Notes: generated from the sequence alone by a model not told the origin. A DNA stretch of 64,000 nucleotides from Gammaproteobacteria bacterium (GCA_016200485.1 JACQEP010000011.1:1-64000), one strand, 5' to 3'; positions 2,422-12,767 are shown, counted from the stretch's first letter. Numbers and translations: made by a program.

Positions 2422-3171
2422 TCAGCCAGCGGCGAGCCAGATCAGGCTCGCCATGCGACCCGTGACACCCTCACGACGATAAGAATAGAAGCGCTCGGCA
2501 TCAGTAAAGGTACACCAATGCCCACCATAAATTTGGTTTACCCCCAATCGCTGCAAACGCAGACGGGCCAGCTGGTAAATATCGGCCAGCCAGCGCCCGG
2601 CAGGTGACGGTACGAAGGCCGCGGCGGCAGCGGGATCATGGGCGATAAAGGCCTGTCGTACCTCGTCGCCGACCTCAAATGCGTCCGGGCCGATAGCAGG
2701 GCCAAGCCAGGCCAGCAGATCATTCGCGGGGCTGCCCATGCGGAGTACAGTTTGTTCGATCACCCCATTCACCAGCCCGCGCCAACCGGCATGGGCGGCG
2801 CCGACATGGGTACCTTGCACATCGCATAACAACACTGGCAGACAGTCCGCCGTCAGCACGGCACAGACCAGACCCGGGCGATCGGCAACACTGGCATCGG
2901 CCATCGGTTTACCGTGCGCGGTAGCCACATCGATTACATCGATGCCATGTACCTGTTCCAGCCACAGCGGCTCGGCAGGCAAGCCCCGCGCTTGACGCAA
3001 GCGGCGGCGGTTTTCGGCCACGGCTTGTGGCTCATCGCTGACGTGATCGCCAAGATTGAGGCTATTCCACGGCGCCACGCTCACACCGCCCTGGCGGGTG
3101 GTGGTGCCGGCCCGCACCCGCGCTGGAGCGGGCCAATCGGGAACGATCCAGCCGTTAACCACCGTGCTCAC
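2422..3171 (-). CDS. pgeF: PgeF/YfiH: purine nucleoside phosphorylase / laccase-domain protein
   Basis: A 249-residue YfiH-family enzyme. Members phosphorolyse purine nucleosides, and E. coli YfiH has also been linked to peptidoglycan precursor editing. The metal-site motifs are present: WLEQVHG near residue 71, the Cys in LTADCLPVLL near 110, and AAHAGWRGLVNG near 127. Length is typical. The start overlaps the end of rluD by 17 bp, so translation is probably coupled; the rluD-yfiH pairing is conserved in gammaproteobacteria. Confidence 0.92.
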   Translation of the reverse strand: MSTVVNGWIVPDWPAPARVRAGTTTRQGGVSVAPWNSLNLGDHVSDEPQAVAENRRRLRQARGLPAEPLWLEQVHGIDVIDVATAHGKPMADASVADRPGLVCAVLTADCLPVLLCDVQGTHVGAAHAGWRGLVNGVIEQTVLRMGSPANDLLAWLGPAIGPDAFEVGDEVRQAFIAHDPAAAAAFVPSPAGRWLADIYQLARLRLQRLGVNQIYGGHWCTFTDAERFYSYRREGVTGRMASLIWLAAG

Positions 3172-4117
3172 GGAGATCCTCTCTCAGGACGTCCAGCAAT
3201 TCGGTCATGTCTGCTGGCGCGGGGGTTTCCCATTCCAGCCACTCGCCGGTCATCGGTTGCTCCAAACCGAGGCACGCCGCATGCAGCGCCTGGCGGTTGA
3301 ACTGGCGCAATGCAGTTTGTATCCGCTCGCCGCTATCGGGCGGCAGTTTCAGGCGCCCGCCATAAACCGGATCACCGACCAACGGGTAATGGATATACGC
3401 CATGTGGACGCGGATCTGGTGGGTGCGGCCAGTTTCTAAGTTCACTTGGATAAAGGTATGGGCGCGAAAGCGCTCGGTCACGCGGTAGTGGGTGATCGCC
3501 TCTTTGCCCGTCTCCACCACCGCCATCCGTTTGCGGTCGACGGGGTGGCGACCAATCGGCGCCTCAACGGTGCCGCCGCCGGTCATCACGCCGCAGACCA
3601 CGGCTTGATACTGGCGTTTGATCTCGCGCAGCTGCATCATCTCCACCAATCGCTTCTGCGACTTGATGTGGCGCGCGACAACCAGCAGGCCGCTAGTGTC
3701 CTTGTCCAAACGATGGATAATCCCCGCCCGTGGCACCGCGGCCACCTCGGGGGCATAATGCAACAGGGCATTGACCAGGGTGCCGTCCGGATTACCGGCC
3801 GCCGGGTGTACCACCATCCCCGCCGGCTTGTTGACCACCAGGATGTCCTCATCCTCATACACCACCGTTAACGGGATGTCCTGCGGCTGCCAATCCACCT
3901 CAATCTCGGTAACAGCGGTGAGCTCGACCTGCTCGCCACCGATCACTTTATCCTTGGGTCGCCAGACCTCGCCATCGACCAGCACCTGCCCCTCCTTGAT
4001 CCAGTGTTGGAGCCGGGCCCTGGAATAGTCCGGAAATAGCTGGGCCAGGGCCTGGTCCAAACGCTGGCCGGTTAAGGTTTCCGGGACTTCAACCGTTAAA
4101 TAATCGTGCGCTAACAT
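3155..4117 (-). CDS. rluD: 23S rRNA pseudouridine synthase RluD
   Basis: A 320-residue protein with an N-terminal S4 RNA-binding domain (RLDQALAQLFPDYSRARL) and an RluA-type catalytic domain. The catalytic-Asp motif is GIIHRLDKDTSGLLVVA near residue 133. The downstream block ETGRTHQIRVHMAYI is also conserved. RluD modifies helix 69 of 23S rRNA (E. coli U1911, U1915, U1917). It is divergent from the BamD-type cluster and overlaps pgeF downstream. The rluD/bamD neighbourhood supports RluD over RluA or RluC. Confidence 0.93.
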   Translation of the reverse strand: MLAHDYLTVEVPETLTGQRLDQALAQLFPDYSRARLQHWIKEGQVLVDGEVWRPKDKVIGGEQVELTAVTEIEVDWQPQDIPLTVVYEDEDILVVNKPAGMVVHPAAGNPDGTLVNALLHYAPEVAAVPRAGIIHRLDKDTSGLLVVARHIKSQKRLVEMMQLREIKRQYQAVVCGVMTGGGTVEAPIGRHPVDRKRMAVVETGKEAITHYRVTERFRAHTFIQVNLETGRTHQIRVHMAYIHYPLVGDPVYGGRLKLPPDSGERIQTALRQFNRQALHAACLGLEQPMTGEWLEWETPAPADMTELLDVLREDLREHGG

Positions 4118-4241: not shown

Positions 4242-5693
4242 ATGGCAAAACGGACTCTCTGCAACCACATTAAAAAGTTAGCGCTATGTGGATTACTGCT
4301 GCTGGACGCCCCATTTCAGACTTGGGCGGCGACCGCCGAGGATTATTATCAAAACGGCAAGAGTTCGATGACCAGCGGCGACCTTCAGGGCGCGCTCACT
4401 TATTTCGACCAGTTACGTAAACTCTATCCGCACGACCCCTACGCCAATCAAGCGCTCATCGAAATGGGCTACGCCTATTACAAACTGGCAGACAGCGATG
4501 CGGCAATTAATATGCTGGATAGTTTCATTGCCGAACAACCCGATCACCCGCATCTGCCTTACGCTTATTATCTCGCCGGACTCACCCGTTACGATGAAGC
4601 CACACAAATGTTTGCTACTGCAAACACCGATCAAGGCAACGCCCGTATCGCCGCCATCACTGACCAGGCGCTTGGTTATTTTGGTTTATTGATTGATCGT
4701 TATCCCGGCAGTCAGTACGTGGCCGATGCGCGCCAAAAAAGTACGCATCTGTTGGAACTGTTGATGCTACGTCGCAACAATACTCAGGTGGCTGAGACTA
4801 CTCCCAAGAACGAAGCCATTTCCAGCGATGGAATCAAAGATGCAAACTGGCTGCTCGGACAACCGCCCTCCTATTTCACCTTGCAGTTGACGGCCGACCC
4901 CAAGCCTGAAGAGCTGCAGCAACTCATTAAAACAAATGAGCTTAAAGACAAGGCGATTATCTACGAGTTGCGGAACGAGAATGGCTCTGTCTATGTTTTG
5001 CTCTATGGCGTATACCTGAATAAACGCGCAGCGATGGAAGCCGGCTCATTGTTGCCTGATCCCATCTTGCGGCGCCAACCCTGGGTACGCGAAGTCAGTT
5101 CAGCACAAATCGACATTCGGCAAAGTCGTCTGGCCATGGTTCAGAACTCTTCCAAACCAAAAGCCACCGACATTTCCGAACCTGTTCCAACCCCCAAACC
5201 AACAGAAACTGTTCAGCCTGTCGACAAATCGCAACCTGCTGCCGTTGAAATCACCGCCGCAGCTGCTGCTGTAATACCGAGCATTACACCCGTAATTCAA
5301 ACAGCGCCGGTACCTGCTCCTGCACCCGCAGCGCCGGCAGCAACCGCAAACAAACCCGAAACAAGCGCACCGGCAAAAACCAATACCACGTCGGGGCCGC
5401 GACGTGAAGAATGGTTGCTAAGCCAGAACCCACGATACTACACCCTTCAGGTAACCGCTGTGTCGCAGGAAAAATCTGCCCAGCAATTTATTCGTCAACA
5501 CCAACTTGGAGACGAGGCCGCCTACTTCCGCAACATACGCGACAACAAAGAGTTTTTCTCCGTCACCTACGGCAGCTATCCTACCAAGCAAGCCGCCGCG
5601 GAGGCGGCCAAAACCGTCGCCGAATCCGCCGGCGCTCAACCTTGGGTGCGCAAATTCAGCGACGTGCATAGCGCCATCCGCAGCACAAAGTAA
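4242..5693 (+). CDS. BamD-like periplasmic protein with two C-terminal SPOR-type domains
   Basis: About 483 residues. A signal sequence (LALCGLLLLDAPFQTWA) is followed by a YfiO/BamD-type TPR block: EDYYQNGKSSMTSGDLQGAL, then YAYYKLADSDAAI and the SQYVADAR signature. Two repeats about 90 residues long follow, near 202-290 and 388-478, each with W-L-L..Y-[FY]-T-L-Q and a later V-[LT]-Y-G-x-Y. This fits the SPOR fold that binds denuded septal glycan. A Pro/Ala/Thr-rich linker separates them. No canonical lipobox is seen, unlike the next gene. I prefer the ATG at 4242, preceded by AAAGGGA, over the ATG at 4224. It is the first of three tandem BamD-type genes. Function is not known. Confidence 0.75.
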   Translation: MAKRTLCNHIKKLALCGLLLLDAPFQTWAATAEDYYQNGKSSMTSGDLQGALTYFDQLRKLYPHDPYANQALIEMGYAYYKLADSDAAINMLDSFIAEQPDHPHLPYAYYLAGLTRYDEATQMFATANTDQGNARIAAITDQALGYFGLLIDRYPGSQYVADARQKSTHLLELLMLRRNNTQVAETTPKNEAISSDGIKDANWLLGQPPSYFTLQLTADPKPEELQQLIKTNELKDKAIIYELRNENGSVYVLLYGVYLNKRAAMEAGSLLPDPILRRQPWVREVSSAQIDIRQSRLAMVQNSSKPKATDISEPVPTPKPTETVQPVDKSQPAAVEITAAAAAVIPSITPVIQTAPVPAPAPAAPAATANKPETSAPAKTNTTSGPRREEWLLSQNPRYYTLQVTAVSQEKSAQQFIRQHQLGDEAAYFRNIRDNKEFFSVTYGSYPTKQAAAEAAKTVAESAGAQPWVRKFSDVHSAIRSTK

Positions 5694-5779
5694 CCGGGTT
5701 AATTCCAGAGACAAAACTGCTCCGCCTATGTTAGGCTGAACCCAGTCTTTGGTACTGGGAACTTCCGGCTTTGTGTGAG

Positions 5780-6991
5780 ATGGCGATTCAGCGGCTAGTC
5801 ATTGCGATATTCACTGCGGCCCTCATCTTCAGCGGCTGTAGTTCGATGAACCCCCGCGATCAGCGTCAATCCTGGTCCGCCGATCGGTATCGGGAAGAAG
5901 CCCACGCCGCAATGCAACTTAACAATTACGGTACCGCCGCAGATTATCTGCAGGAACTCACCGTACGTTATCCGCTGGACTCGCATACCCGCGAATCCTA
6001 TTTACAAATTGCCTACGCCCATTACAAAAATCTTCGCTACGACGCCACGATTGCCGCCGCCGATAAATATTTAACGCTTTATCCCGATGACAAAGATGAC
6101 GCCTATGCCTATTATTTGCGCGGCCTCGCCGATTTTGAACGTGGCATTAATGCGCTTAATGATCCGGTCAAATTGGATGACCCAAACATCGCCAATCAAG
6201 CCCGCGCCGCTTATGATAGTTTTCTTGCCTTGATCCAACATTATCCAGACAGCAATTACGCGCGCGATGCCCACGCGCGGCTGAATTTATTGCGCGACCG
6301 TCTGGCCAATCATGAATTGCAGTTGGCGCAACAAGCCCTGGAAAAAGGCAACAAGGATTCTGCCCGCACCCGCGCCCGCTACGTCGCCGAGCATTACGCG
6401 GATACCCAGGTCGCTACCGAAGCCATGAAACTGCTGGTTCAGCTCAACCATGCACCGGCCACCCCAACGGCGACGCCAGCAACACCCGAACCGGTAACGG
6501 CAACAAAACCAGCGATCGCCGTTGCGGAGCCGATTGATGAAGAGGCAAGCCCGGCCCGTGAATCGATGACCGCCGAATTACCCACGGGCGCTGAACCCGT
6601 CGTTGCCCAGCCGCAGCCTGCACCCTTCGCGTCCACAGGCGAACCTTCCCCCAGCGCTGAAGATCCCAAACAGACAGAACTCTATCTTAAAGGCCTGCGT
6701 GACGAAGCGTGGTTACTCCGGCAACGTGGTGACTTCTACACCCTGCAAATCGCTGGCACCTCACAAGCACGCTGGGTACGCAACTTTGTCAATCAGCATG
6801 ACATCGGCCAGGACGTCGCCTACTACCGCAAACACCAGGCCAAGGGCGAATGGTACTCGGTACTCTATGGTCTTTATGCCAACCTCGCCGATGCCCGTGC
6901 CGCCCGCCGCGATATCCTCAACCAACTCGGCACCCAGGATGCGTGGATACGGCCGTTACGCGATGTACAAAAAGACATTAAATCCAGATAA
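5780..6991 (+). CDS. BamD-like lipoprotein with a C-terminal SPOR-type domain
   Basis: About 403 residues. The signal peptide ends in the lipobox IFSGC, so it is probably an outer-membrane lipoprotein. The BamD-type TPR region aligns by eye with the bamD product downstream (WSADRYREEAHAAM against WTAQRYYEEAQKAM; AYYLRGLADFERGI against AYYLKGLANFDRGL). A Pro/Ala/Thr linker leads to a SPOR-type segment near 315-400 (DFYTLQIAG, later WYSVLYGLYANLADA). The longer frame would use TTG at 5771; ATG at 5780 gives a compact signal peptide. It probably arose by duplication of bamD with added SPOR segments. Confidence 0.78.
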   Translation: MAIQRLVIAIFTAALIFSGCSSMNPRDQRQSWSADRYREEAHAAMQLNNYGTAADYLQELTVRYPLDSHTRESYLQIAYAHYKNLRYDATIAAADKYLTLYPDDKDDAYAYYLRGLADFERGINALNDPVKLDDPNIANQARAAYDSFLALIQHYPDSNYARDAHARLNLLRDRLANHELQLAQQALEKGNKDSARTRARYVAEHYADTQVATEAMKLLVQLNHAPATPTATPATPEPVTATKPAIAVAEPIDEEASPARESMTAELPTGAEPVVAQPQPAPFASTGEPSPSAEDPKQTELYLKGLRDEAWLLRQRGDFYTLQIAGTSQARWVRNFVNQHDIGQDVAYYRKHQAKGEWYSVLYGLYANLADARAARRDILNQLGTQDAWIRPLRDVQKDIKSR

Positions 6992-7203
6992 CCGCGCTGA
7001 GCAGTGGCCGTCGAATCCCAAGCCGCCCACCGGCGGTCGCATCCCCGGCTTACGCCGTGGGCCCTGCTCTTCGCCTCGGGTGGCTGACCCTCAGTGGGGC
7101 GGCAAGCATGAAGTTGAGATAAATTGTGTGCAAAGACAGCCCCTTCGGCTTGTGATAGTCTAGGCAGCCACTAACCCCACAGAAGCCAGCCCAGAATTGC
7201 GTC

Positions 7204-7968
7204 ATGTCGTTGCGGAAAATCATTAGCTTATTCACCCTGACCACCCTCCTCCTTGCCGGTTGCGCCACCACCAAGGACGATCCCAGCACCTGGACCGCCC
7301 AGCGCTACTACGAAGAGGCGCAAAAAGCCATGAAATCGAGCGATTACCAAACCGCCGTCAAGCACTTTGAAGACCTGGAGGTGCGCCATCCCTTTGGCCC
7401 GTATACCGAACAGGCGCAGCTCGAAATCGGCTATGCCTATTACAAGTTCGATGAACCTGAATCTGCCATTGCCGCCGCCGACCGCTTCATCAAACTCTAT
7501 CCGCGCCACAAGAACGTCGAGTACGCCTATTACCTCAAGGGCCTGGCCAATTTTGACCGGGGCTTGAGCAGCTTCGATCTTTTCCTGGGCCTCGATCCGA
7601 CCACCCGCGACCCGAAACCCGCCCGTGAAGCCTTCCGCAATTTTGCCGACTTGATCCAACAATTCCCCAATAGCCGTTACGCCGACGATGCGCGCCAACG
7701 CATGATTCACCTGCGTAATCACCTAGCGCAGTATGAACTACACGTCGCTGACTATTACCTGCGCCGTCAGGCCTATCTCGCCGCTGCCAATCGCGGCAAA
7801 TACCTCCTGGAAACCTATCCCCAAACACCCGCCATCCCGCAAGCCCTGAGCATCATGGTGCAGGCCTATCGCCAGCTCCAGCTCAATGATCTGGCCAATG
7901 ACGCACTGGATGTGTTAAAGCTAAACTATCCGGATAGCCCAGCGTTGAAGGCGCTCAATAACGTTTGA
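7204..7968 (+). CDS. bamD: Outer-membrane assembly lipoprotein BamD
   Basis: A 254-residue lipoprotein with lipobox LLAGC and five TPR-like repeats. The BamD signatures are present: HPFGPYTEQAQLEIGYAYYK, a long YAYYLKGLANFDRGL segment and the NSRYADDARQRM motif. BamD is the essential lipoprotein partner of BamA in beta-barrel insertion. Length is close to E. coli BamD (245). It lies third in a row of BamD-type genes and is the only one without a SPOR extension, so it is the likely working subunit. Confidence 0.93.
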   Translation: MSLRKIISLFTLTTLLLAGCATTKDDPSTWTAQRYYEEAQKAMKSSDYQTAVKHFEDLEVRHPFGPYTEQAQLEIGYAYYKFDEPESAIAAADRFIKLYPRHKNVEYAYYLKGLANFDRGLSSFDLFLGLDPTTRDPKPAREAFRNFADLIQQFPNSRYADDARQRMIHLRNHLAQYELHVADYYLRRQAYLAAANRGKYLLETYPQTPAIPQALSIMVQAYRQLQLNDLANDALDVLKLNYPDSPALKALNNV

Positions 7969-8154: not shown

Positions 8155-8679
8155 ATGTGGGATTTTTTCGAAACCGTCCGTCACCGTCACTCAGTCCGCC
8201 GCTATCGCAGCGATCTCCCGGTCGAGCGCGAAAAACTCCACGCTATCCTGGAAACCGCTTGCGCCGCACCCTCTGCGGGCGATCTCCAGGCTTACCGGAT
8301 TTTAGTTGTCAGCGATGCCAGCAAACGCCAAGCGCTTTCCGCCGCCGCCGACAATCAAAGCTTCATCGCCGAAGCGCCTGTGTGCCTGGTTTTTTGTGCC
8401 GATCCACAACGTTCAGCCGAAAAGTATGGTGATCGCGGCCGTACGCTTTATGCCACCAAAGACGCCACCATTGCCGCCGCCTATGCCCAGCTCGCGATTG
8501 TCGCTGCGGGCATGGGATCGACCTGGATTGGATATTTCGACGAAAGCCGTGTCCGAAAAGCGCTCGATATATCTAATAATCTCGTGCCGGTAGCACTCCT
8601 CAGTCTTGGTTATCCCGCCGAATTACCCGAACCCACTCCGCGCCGGCGGCTGGATGATATCGTCAATTATCTCGACTAA
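8155..8679 (+). CDS. Nitroreductase-family flavoprotein
   Basis: A 174-residue protein of the FMN-dependent nitroreductase family. The N-terminal FMN-binding pattern RHSVRRYRSD is followed by APSAGDLQAYRILVV and, later, DATIAAAYAQLAIVAAGMGS with WIG, all typical of the fold. These enzymes reduce nitro groups, quinones or flavins with NAD(P)H. The substrate cannot be read from sequence. Length fits the shorter subfamily. It is encoded alone on the plus strand, about 70 bp before the nfeD-like gene. Confidence 0.88.
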   Translation: MWDFFETVRHRHSVRRYRSDLPVEREKLHAILETACAAPSAGDLQAYRILVVSDASKRQALSAAADNQSFIAEAPVCLVFCADPQRSAEKYGDRGRTLYATKDATIAAAYAQLAIVAAGMGSTWIGYFDESRVRKALDISNNLVPVALLSLGYPAELPEPTPRRRLDDIVNYLD

Positions 8680-10069: not shown

Positions 10070-10673
10070 CCACACCACCGCGCGCTCGCATAGATGCTCA
10101 AGATCTACTTTTTTGCATGTCTCATCGCACAAGCGGCCGGGGTATTAAATCGTAGGAACAGCTTCGCCGCGATAACGCCGCCAGGCGGGGCTTGCGGCGT
10201 AGGGGCGATTCATGAATCATCCCTACAAATCTTTCGCAGTAAGCTGCGGGGAATTACACCCGCAGAGATTAATCAGAGGTTCCTTAAGCTCACTTGTGAA
10301 AAGAAACTCCGGTGCTATGCTTACTGAGCCGACTATATAAGAACAGCCCTGACCATTCACTCTACGAACTGCGAGCGAACTCAGCGGCTAATCTACTGCA
10401 ATAAAAAATAGCCGGAAGGAATATCATTATGAATAAGCTATTTTTTATAGCTTATTCAGCGGCGTGCTACGGTCAAATCAAACAGTGGCAAATTTTTCCG
10501 TGATCTTCAAGTAAATAGCTGCTCTTCACTCATCCATTTCCATTATTTATCAACGTATACCTTGGTATGCGGTACCAATGAGTGATTTCGCAATTTAACC
10601 GCAAACTTTAGAGTACCGGACCTCGGCTACTCGGCAGCCGATTCATATGTCATCTACCACGGAGGGTGTTGTC
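10070..10673. other. Intergenic region with a composite repeat and a palindrome
   Basis: About 600 bp without a recognisable gene. It holds composite repeat copy A (10171-10272) and a separate A/T-rich palindrome at 10431-10457 (GAATAAGCTA, 7-nt centre, TAGCTTATTC). The palindrome could be a terminator-like hairpin. The rest shows no coding signal that I can support. Confidence 0.6.
10171..10272. repeat. Composite repeat element, copy A (contains the 28-bp palindrome)
   Basis: This segment of about 102 bp is nearly the same as 28215-28319. Shared parts in order: GATAACGCCGCCAGGC, TGCGGCGTAGGGG, the 28-bp palindrome (10199-10226 here, with one arm altered), TCTTTCGCAG, AAGCTGCGGGGAATTACACC and CGCAGAGATTAA. 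A spurious ORF across it yields the peptide VGAIHES, also read from copy B. Confidence 0.9.
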
Positions 10674-12767
10674 ATGGTCACACATTACTCGGAAAGTGAA
10701 AGCGGCGGACGCTATGTAAAAGGCGAACTCCGTATCGAAGGGCAAGTCAAACTTGCAGAGGCGGATTCCGAAACCGCTGAACTTGAACTGACCGCCTATG
10801 TCTACAACCGCGTTGGAGAATTTCTCGGCAGCGCTGCCGTAGACAAAAGTGGTGCATTTAACATAGCGCCACGACTGGCACAACCGGCAGACGTCGAGCT
10901 GGTGATTGCACCAAAGGGCAATCCGGCGCAAGTGCGCGCTTCATCGGGCTATATCAAAAAATTTGCCGCCAAGGACTGGCAGCAGGACGGCGGTGTATTT
11001 CTCATTCGGCCAGACCTCAACATCAGACGCGATATCTGGTGGCCCTGGTGGCCGCAGCGCATTTGCATCTCGGGTCATGTGCGCAAGATTTCGCATCACG
11101 ACGGCCACACGGATATTTGTCCGGTTCCATTTGTTAAAGTTGAAATCTTCGATGTCGACCGCGAATCCTGTCTCTGGCCCTGGATCCGCAACGGGTGGGA
11201 TAAACTGATTGATCGGCCGGTCATCCGACTGCCGGAGTTAATCAGGCAATCTCCCATTCCACCCCGCCCCATCCCCGGCCCGGACCCTGCGCCGGAACTC
11301 AATTTCGGCGGCAGCGTGAGTCTTAATCCACAACCCTTGCCACCGCGCGCGCGGGCGATGAGCTTGATGCATGCGGGCGAGGCCGTTGGTTTCGATCCGC
11401 AGCCTGCCCCGCCTGCTGCCAGTCTCAGCATGGGCCGTGTGGGTGAAATCGCGGCACTACAACCCTCACTGGCAAGCCGCCTCGATCGTCTGACGATCAC
11501 ATCTAAATTGGCGCCGTGGCTGCTGTTTCCGCACTGTTTTTACAGTACACAACTCGTTTGCGAAACCACCACTGACTGCCACGGCTATTTCCGTTGTTGC
11601 TTTAAATGGTGGCCGTTCCATTTTCGCCGTGGCCGTTTACGTTTCGATGCTCGCCCCGACATCATTATTCGCGTCACGCAAGTGATCAATGGCGTCGCAC
11701 ATGTCATCTATCTTGACCCCTACACCAGTACGCGCTGGAATATCAGCAACGCCCACATTGATCTGTTCCTTGATAATGAGGAAATCATATGTGGCACACC
11801 GGACTGCGATCCACGCCCGGCAGGTTCGCCGGTATTCTTCACCCGCATCGGTGACGATGAAGTCTATCTCATCAATCAAGGCAGCGGTTTGTACCGGCAA
11901 CCTGGACCACCCAGCAATGTCGCTTACGGTAGTACCTTGCTAGTGTACGGTCAGTTTGGTGATGCGCTAAGCACCGGCGCACCGGCTCGCTATTATCGTT
12001 TGTCATATGCAGCGCATGGCAGCAGTAATTTCGTTCCTATAACTGCGGCGCTGTCGGATACTCGCGTCAACAAGGGTACACTGCTCAGTGATAGCCATGT
12101 GCTCGGCCCACAGACCGTCAATGGCGTGCAGGCACTCTATGCAGTACGTAATTTCAGTGACTACTATTGGTATAACCCGGACTGGATTGGCACCTGGAAT
12201 ACACTGCTCGCGGAAGTGGACACTGGCAAATATGTATTGCGGCTGGAAGTGTTCGACGAAAACGGCAACAAACTCACGTCCGCAATGGGCGTGGATTATC
12301 GCGACGGCACCGTGGTACCACCCGCCGTGTTGCCGCCGATGCTGGATCGTTGTGACCTTGTCATCACGCTCGATAACAAACCGCCAGTGGTCAACATCGA
12401 CATCCCGGCGGTGCTCAACGAGTGCGGCGTCATTCCCGGCTCATCCGTGCCACCACTGAACCTGAATATCAGCGTGTCACAGGAAAACGGCCGGCTGCAC
12501 GCCTGGGGCTTGCAATACACCAAAGGCGTCAATCCGGCAGTACATGTGCTCGACAGCGGCAGCTCGAACACTGGTTTACCTTCCGCAATCAATAAGGTAG
12601 TTGATGCCACCAACGCGCCGACCGGTATCGACATGCTGGATGGTGTCACAACCACTTGTGCGTTTGCATTGAAGCTGTGGGCTACAGCACATGTGCGCGA
12701 TGGACGACAATTCATTTACTACCAGGAGCAGATCAAGGCTATCGCCATTGAAAACTGCATTTGTTAA
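10674..12767 (+). CDS. Large protein of unknown function with NPQPLPP-type motifs
   Basis: About 697 residues; I do not recognise a named family. I chose ATG 10674 because GGAGGG stands 7 bp before it; an earlier in-frame ATG is at 10647. No signal peptide or membrane segment is visible. Seen in order: an N-terminal beta-rich part resembling a carboxypeptidase-regulatory or transthyretin-like fold (AYVYNRVGEFLGSAAVDKSG), a Trp-rich stretch (DIWWPWWPQRICISG), a Pro-rich hinge with SLNPQPLPPRA and GFDPQPAPPAA, a Cys-bearing block (CETTTDCHGYFRCCFKWWPF), then a long C-terminal beta-rich half. A terminator follows directly. It stands alone, so the neighbours give no clue. Confidence 0.7.
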   Translation: MVTHYSESESGGRYVKGELRIEGQVKLAEADSETAELELTAYVYNRVGEFLGSAAVDKSGAFNIAPRLAQPADVELVIAPKGNPAQVRASSGYIKKFAAKDWQQDGGVFLIRPDLNIRRDIWWPWWPQRICISGHVRKISHHDGHTDICPVPFVKVEIFDVDRESCLWPWIRNGWDKLIDRPVIRLPELIRQSPIPPRPIPGPDPAPELNFGGSVSLNPQPLPPRARAMSLMHAGEAVGFDPQPAPPAASLSMGRVGEIAALQPSLASRLDRLTITSKLAPWLLFPHCFYSTQLVCETTTDCHGYFRCCFKWWPFHFRRGRLRFDARPDIIIRVTQVINGVAHVIYLDPYTSTRWNISNAHIDLFLDNEEIICGTPDCDPRPAGSPVFFTRIGDDEVYLINQGSGLYRQPGPPSNVAYGSTLLVYGQFGDALSTGAPARYYRLSYAAHGSSNFVPITAALSDTRVNKGTLLSDSHVLGPQTVNGVQALYAVRNFSDYYWYNPDWIGTWNTLLAEVDTGKYVLRLEVFDENGNKLTSAMGVDYRDGTVVPPAVLPPMLDRCDLVITLDNKPPVVNIDIPAVLNECGVIPGSSVPPLNLNISVSQENGRLHAWGLQYTKGVNPAVHVLDSGSSNTGLPSAINKVVDATNAPTGIDMLDGVTTTCAFALKLWATAHVRDGRQFIYYQEQIKAIAIENCIC

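Follow-up and report, generated by a model that had tools for sequence, protein, structure and literature searches.

We analyzed a 64,000-nucleotide stretch of DNA from a gammaproteobacterium (GCA_016200485.1, JACQEP010000011.1:1-64000), which in its full length is called the window. Positions 4242-7968 of the window hold three same-strand open reading frames in a row, P1, P2 and bamD, which together with their neighbours and domains are laid out as follows.

3155..4117, minus strand: rluD, the divergent neighbour, which anchors the conserved locus, a locus with the same gene order in relatives
4242..5693, plus strand: P1 coding sequence, 483 aa, with a signal peptide, BamD-type TPR1-3, SPOR A, a disordered linker and SPOR B
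4329..4802, plus strand: BamD/YfiO-type TPR block of P1 (residues 30-187; profile positions 3-151 of 203), without TPR4-5
4842..5150, plus strand: SPOR A of P1 (residues 201-303), with a beta-alpha-beta-beta-alpha-beta fold in the AlphaFold2 model
5406..5687, plus strand: SPOR B of P1 (residues 389-482; best stretch for Pfam SPOR, 397-471), folded in the AlphaFold2 model
5780..6991, plus strand: P2 coding sequence, 403 aa from the ATG at 5780, with a full BamD-type TPR1-5, a linker and a single SPOR domain
5828..5839, plus strand: lipobox of P2, F-S-G-C (Cys20), with Ser at +2 and no Asp, the pattern of an outer-membrane lipoprotein, as read from the sequence
5879..6451, plus strand: BamD-type TPR solenoid of P2 (residues 34-224; pLDDT about 96, AlphaFold2)
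6470..6679, plus strand: low-complexity, disordered linker of P2 (residues 231-300; pLDDT below 60)
6704..6982, plus strand: SPOR domain of P2 (residues 309-401), with a beta-alpha-beta-beta-alpha-beta fold in the AlphaFold2 model (pLDDT about 91)
7204..7968, plus strand: bamD, canonical, encoding a 254-aa lipoprotein (YfiO, 4.1e-74 in Pfam; TIGR03302, 299.7 bits) that groups with canonical BamDs
8155..8679, plus strand: nitroreductase-family gene (family named by inspection), a conserved neighbour 3' of bamD

The ATG of P1 at 4242 is closely preceded by a plausible Shine-Dalgarno stretch, aaaaggga. For P2, a start at the first TTG, 5771 (5771-6991), is possible, and the ATG at 5780 is more plausible. 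A promoter and terminator scan of the locus gave no clear excess over shuffled sequence. The gene order was conserved in the relatives compared, with rluD divergent from the fusion gene or genes, which are followed by bamD and the nitroreductase-family gene; in E. coli, rluD and bamD are divergent and adjoining, with zero genes between them.

Domain evidence for P1 and P2

The TPR blocks of both proteins were assigned as BamD-type by profile and by fold. P1 matched YfiO at 2.9e-27 (Pfam-A) and TIGR03302 (OM_YfiO) at 109.9 bits, above the curated cut-off of 81.4, and its AlphaFold2 model was helical over residues 32-185 and further showed a disordered linker and a pair of SPOR folds. Its PF05036 match (1.5e-14) reached 54.5 bits over two stretches, against a gathering cut-off of 21. 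In a sequence search, residues 203-292 matched the structure of the E. coli DamX SPOR domain (2lfv) at 5.4e-9, and SPOR B was matched in the genome at 5430-5654 (4.6e-11). When the P1 model was searched with Foldseek, BamD structures ranked first and 2lfv was also returned. By inspection, P1 has a signal peptide without a canonical lipobox. It carries TPR1-3 only, whereas P2 and bamD have all five TPRs of BamD.

P2 matched nearly the full YfiO profile (1.3e-39, Pfam-A) and scored 164.6 bits against TIGR03302, relative to the same curated cut-off. BamD structures were the first Foldseek matches to its model (TM 0.69-0.83 by target length, E of about 1e-9); the TPR of YbgF/CpoB and NlpI with MepS or Prc were also returned. 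The single SPOR domain of P2 scored 28.3 bits for PF05036 (2.3e-6; gathering cut-off, 21), and residues 319-404 matched 2lfv at 2e-5 in the sequence search. Most P2-type homologues, across families, have a lipobox, and P2 is predicted to be a lipid-anchored outer-membrane lipoprotein. The AlphaFold2 models of P1 and P2 were built on alignments of sequences gathered in this analysis, and local confidence was high for their TPR and SPOR folds.

The initial annotation had proposed, from the sequence alone, three tandem BamD-type genes of which two are fused to SPOR-type domains, and Pfam, TIGRFAM, PDB sequence matches and AlphaFold2/Foldseek concur in this. Pfam and the AlphaFold2 folds likewise agree with its count of two SPOR domains in the first gene and one in the second, and the domain positions that it gave were essentially right. 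Its assignment of the C-terminal repeats to SPOR is upheld by PF05036 matches over the cut-off in both proteins and by an RNP-like fold in both models. The TPR blocks are, as it had supposed, BamD-type and not CpoB-like only, the CpoB/YbgF matches being far weaker (6.6e-9 for P1). CpoB/YbgF identity was rejected with TIGR02795, for which P1 and P2 scored 36.4 and 27.9 bits, respectively, against a curated cut-off of 90.1.

Distribution and origin of the fusions

At least one fusion gene was found directly 5' of bamD in 10 of the 11 genomes of the window's family/order; the exception, which is 77% complete, has a different gene at the fusion's place. The window's family includes Candidatus Tenderia, of which contig JASBUE010000111.1 is identical to contig 78 of one of the relatives. 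Both P1-type and P2-type genes are present in the window's genome and in one relative, and in a second relative P2 is accompanied by the truncated end of an apparent P1-type gene at a contig edge. Another genome has the P1-type alone, and the remaining fusion carriers of the 11-genome set have the P2-type alone. Four genomes carry a second, distant fusion elsewhere. In a sample of 370 gammaproteobacterial genomes, fusions were present in at least six further families, and in these every locus that was read lies between rluD and bamD; sequence from these further families was matched to record JALSIC010000010.1. The survey of BamD-SPOR fusions that the initial annotation had called for shows the fusions to be a conserved family of genes, present in at least seven gammaproteobacterial families including that of the window. 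In a phylum sample of 249 genomes, no TPR and SPOR fusion was found among the matches listed outside the window's own genome.

Every fusion-carrying genome retains an ordinary bamD, which is present in 11 of 11 genomes of the order, as is a separate cpoB-type gene; DamX-like proteins were read from nine genomes of the order. The idea that the fusion stands in for a missing bamD, DamX or CpoB was rejected on these counts. BamC (PF06804) was detected in two of the 11 genomes, both of which have fusions, giving no clear link.

A maximum-likelihood tree built from 88 TPR blocks placed the 55 canonical BamDs in one clade, with all fusions outside it (support 98/99), so that neither P1 nor P2 is a BamD by phylogenetic grouping. 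A recent local triplication of bamD, with the three genes of the window in one clade, was rejected (AU p = 8e-5); a constraint that joined the P2-type proteins and the bamDs of the window's family, as expected if P2 arose from bamD within that family, was not rejected (AU p = 0.106). Because the fusion branches in the TPR tree are long, the support values overstate the certainty of the fusions' age and origin, and with this reserve an old BamD paralogue is most likely the better reading than a recent triplication. The proposal of bamD duplication with domain gain thus holds only in an older sense and fails as a recent event. Only 11 of 42 inner branches were well supported in a tree of the SPOR domains, a domain too short for fusion events to be counted.

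The dN/dS values were 0.18-0.33 for the fusions and 0.06-0.14 for the neighbouring bamD, indicating purifying selection. The tandem position beside bamD could suggest recent duplicates under weak constraint with no distinct function, but such an explanation is extremely improbable and already contradicted by the tree, the AU test and dN/dS: the fusions occur in seven families with intact frames, are under purifying selection, lie outside the BamD clade, and do not fit a local triplication.

Residues kept and lost, and the proposed role

The core positions of TPR1-3 that the fusions have in common with BamD (Y107, Y110, A143 and P155) are highly conserved. Positions of TPR4-5 behave differently: Y185 and Y222 (each in 100% of 113 BamDs), R188 (97%), N196 (86%) and the almost invariant A190 are gone from most P2-type fusions. 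R197, present in 100% of the BamDs, is retained in 52% of fusions. P2 of the window keeps R197 and has A, K, T and N in place of Y185, R188, N196 and Y222, respectively, and so lacks the TPR4-5 signature of BamD. These changes are predicted to weaken docking to POTRA5 of BamA.

Such findings bear on whether P2 might serve as an alternative BAM subunit, occupying BamD's site on BamA POTRA5 in some of the complexes, for septum-specific insertion of outer-membrane proteins (OMPs) at places where denuded glycan is exposed. P2-type proteins have all five TPRs, exceed the TIGR03302 cut-off and superpose on BamD, their genes adjoin bamD, and R197 is retained in P2 and about half of the fusions; moreover, wall anchoring is given to the BAM complex of Caulobacter by a separate lipoprotein, Pal (PMC2797634). 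However, the loss of Y185, R188 and Y222, the lack of TPR4-5 in P1 and the ordinary bamD of every fusion genome make this role unlikely. A simpler function would be that of a passive tether, in which P2 merely clips the outer membrane to the septal wall at constriction, in the manner of Pal, with the TPR block as a ligand-free spacer. A lipid anchor, a long linker and a glycan-binding domain would suffice for this, and the dN/dS of the fusions is about 2-3 times that of bamD, but the TPR1-3 core is conserved beyond the needs of a spacer and we consider a mere tether more doubtful still.

Three SPOR positions, those of DamX Q351, W416 and K418, are important in DamX, FtsN or RlpA for binding to glycan or for localising to the septum (PMC6895207). 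Of 34 fusion SPOR domains, 32 have Q at the first of these positions, 31 have W at the second and 31 have R at the third, and all three SPOR domains of the window (A and B of P1 and that of P2) have Q, W and R there. Other positions of the SPOR sheet vary; for example, that of W385 is W in just 21 of the 34 and V in SPOR A of P1. The fusion SPOR domains are predicted to bind glycan. A profile of these domains, searched against the window's genome, found its own DamX-like protein (1.3e-28) and reported none of four other SPOR proteins, for which reason we regard the fusion SPOR as being of the DamX type.

The reading that we favor, with moderate confidence, is that P1 and P2 are members of an ancient family of BamD paralogues that gained a DamX-type SPOR domain and act as a scaffold targeted to septal glycan beside BAM, and not as a replacement for BamD. 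A place beside BAM is preferred to replacement because the fusions have lost the TPR4-5 signature and every fusion genome still has a normal bamD. For the same reasons, the suggestion that the fusion ties an outer-membrane-assembly scaffold to the septum is weakened in its BAM half; its septal half is plausible, the glycan-binding residues being kept.

We infer septal localisation, a partner and a role for P1 and P2 along the following lines. The lipid of P2 would anchor the protein in the outer membrane, with the BamD-fold TPR solenoid near the membrane, and the disordered tether of about 70 residues would reach denuded (peptide-free) glycan bared at the septum by amidases. P1, to which the anchoring step does not apply because it has no clear lipobox, would reside in the periplasm, with TPR1-3 only and a pair of SPOR domains to bind glycan. 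A BamD-like scaffold would thereby be placed at the constriction site, holding the outer membrane to the septal wall, and its TPR block would recruit a partner, which might be an outer-membrane protein precursor, a BAM subunit or an envelope factor. A septal linker of this kind is biologically sensible, since E. coli shows midcell enrichment of BAM (PMC8620860) and OMPs are inserted in the wake of septal wall growth, preferentially at septa because mature wall suppresses BAM (PMC9242858).

As to the partner, P2, with P1, could be a septum-specific partner of BAM or an alternative receptor, its SPOR on denuded glycan and its TPRs on OMP precursors or BAM; we put this forward only tentatively. 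If true, OMP insertion would be directly coupled to the splitting of the septal wall. Alternatively, the BamD-like block may by drift have come to bind proteins in some unrelated role. A rival reading is a CpoB/NlpI-like adaptor for wall enzymes, whose TPR block would hold a synthase or hydrolase of peptidoglycan while its SPOR domain takes the enzyme to the septum, with no role in OMP assembly. The additional Foldseek matches of P2 to YbgF/CpoB and NlpI complexes fit this possibility, as does the loss of the TPR4-5 signature, and the SPOR proteins DamX and DedD are reported to stimulate PBP1A and PBP1B (PMC7642682). Nevertheless, the TPR family is that of BamD, far above CpoB, and a true cpoB-type gene is present in 11 of 11 genomes, leaving the adaptor an outside possibility beside the favored septal scaffold.

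Relation to known systems

The initial annotation knew of no description of this architecture, and a full-text search of the open-access literature found no paper on a fusion of BamD or YfiO with SPOR. As far as that literature goes, the novelty lies in the joining of BamD-type TPRs to SPOR, in the conserved locus and in the separation from BamD, each half being of a known family. The fusion probably connects the outer membrane with cell division in a way not yet studied. It bears on the open question of how construction of the outer membrane is coordinated with septal wall splitting, for which, to our knowledge, no dedicated BAM-septum linker is established, and a conserved, bamD-adjoining gene whose product unites a BamD-type scaffold with a domain for septal glycan offers a concrete, testable candidate. 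The fusions also call for care in annotation, as they pass the cut-off of the BamD model and can be named BamD though they lie outside the BamD clade.

With BamD itself (YfiO/ComL; TIGR03302, PF13525), the fusions share the five-TPR solenoid and lipoprotein signal (in P2), the rluD-adjoining locus and a score above the TIGR03302 cut-off. They differ in the added C-terminal SPOR domain, the lost TPR4-5 signature, their place outside the BamD clade and their coexistence with a normal bamD. CpoB/YbgF and NlpI are likewise periplasmic TPR adaptors that connect wall synthesis or turnover with the outer membrane, but the TPR block of the fusions is BamD-type, and we know of no SPOR domain in either CpoB or NlpI. 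DamX has the same SPOR subtype, with a W-L-x-x-Q...Y-T-L-Q lead-in and the Q351/W416/K418 positions, and the same placement of a C-terminal SPOR after a low-complexity linker; the DamX-like proteins of these genomes, however, combine a membrane segment with an N-terminal part resembling an ATPase, as judged by inspection, and have no BamD-type TPR block or lipobox. RlpA is also an outer-membrane lipoprotein with a C-terminal SPOR domain, although its N-terminal part is a lytic transglycosylase domain and not a TPR. Finally, Pal, as a module of the Caulobacter BAM complex, is an outer-membrane lipoprotein through which the outer-membrane assembly machine gains wall binding (PMC2797634), but it does so as a separate, non-TPR subunit with an OmpA-type wall-binding domain instead of SPOR.

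The rluD-bamD junction

The gap between P2, the fusion gene nearest bamD, and bamD itself is 212 bases in the window (6992-7203), longer than that of same-family relatives (roughly 115 bases or less) and exceeded by the corresponding gap of two genomes of f21, another gammaproteobacterial family with fusions (>300 bases). Additional BamD-like genes, one of them of 181 aa, adjoin the fusion or bamD in three other genomes, and SPOR was not detected in these three genes:

L138:2902-3444, additional BamD-like gene
L143:3-1178, additional BamD-like gene
L149:2263-2901, additional BamD-like gene

The junction seems to be a gathering place for BamD paralogues.

Other genes in the window and order

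The 706-aa ORF at 10647-12764 had no match in a Pfam search up to E 0.01. BamC (PF06804) was found, at the threshold used, in only two of the 11 genomes of the order:

G000 (the window's genome), contig 1, 71652-72578, BamC match
G010, contig 7, 9426-10250, BamC match

A second BamD-SPOR family

Within the window's family, four genomes carry a more divergent second BamD-SPOR family at another location:

L048:4042-5457, family member
L049:2-1069, family member
L050:3503-4636, family member
L051:3764-4963, family member

Their TPR blocks formed their own clade (support 100/96) in the maximum-likelihood tree of TPR blocks.
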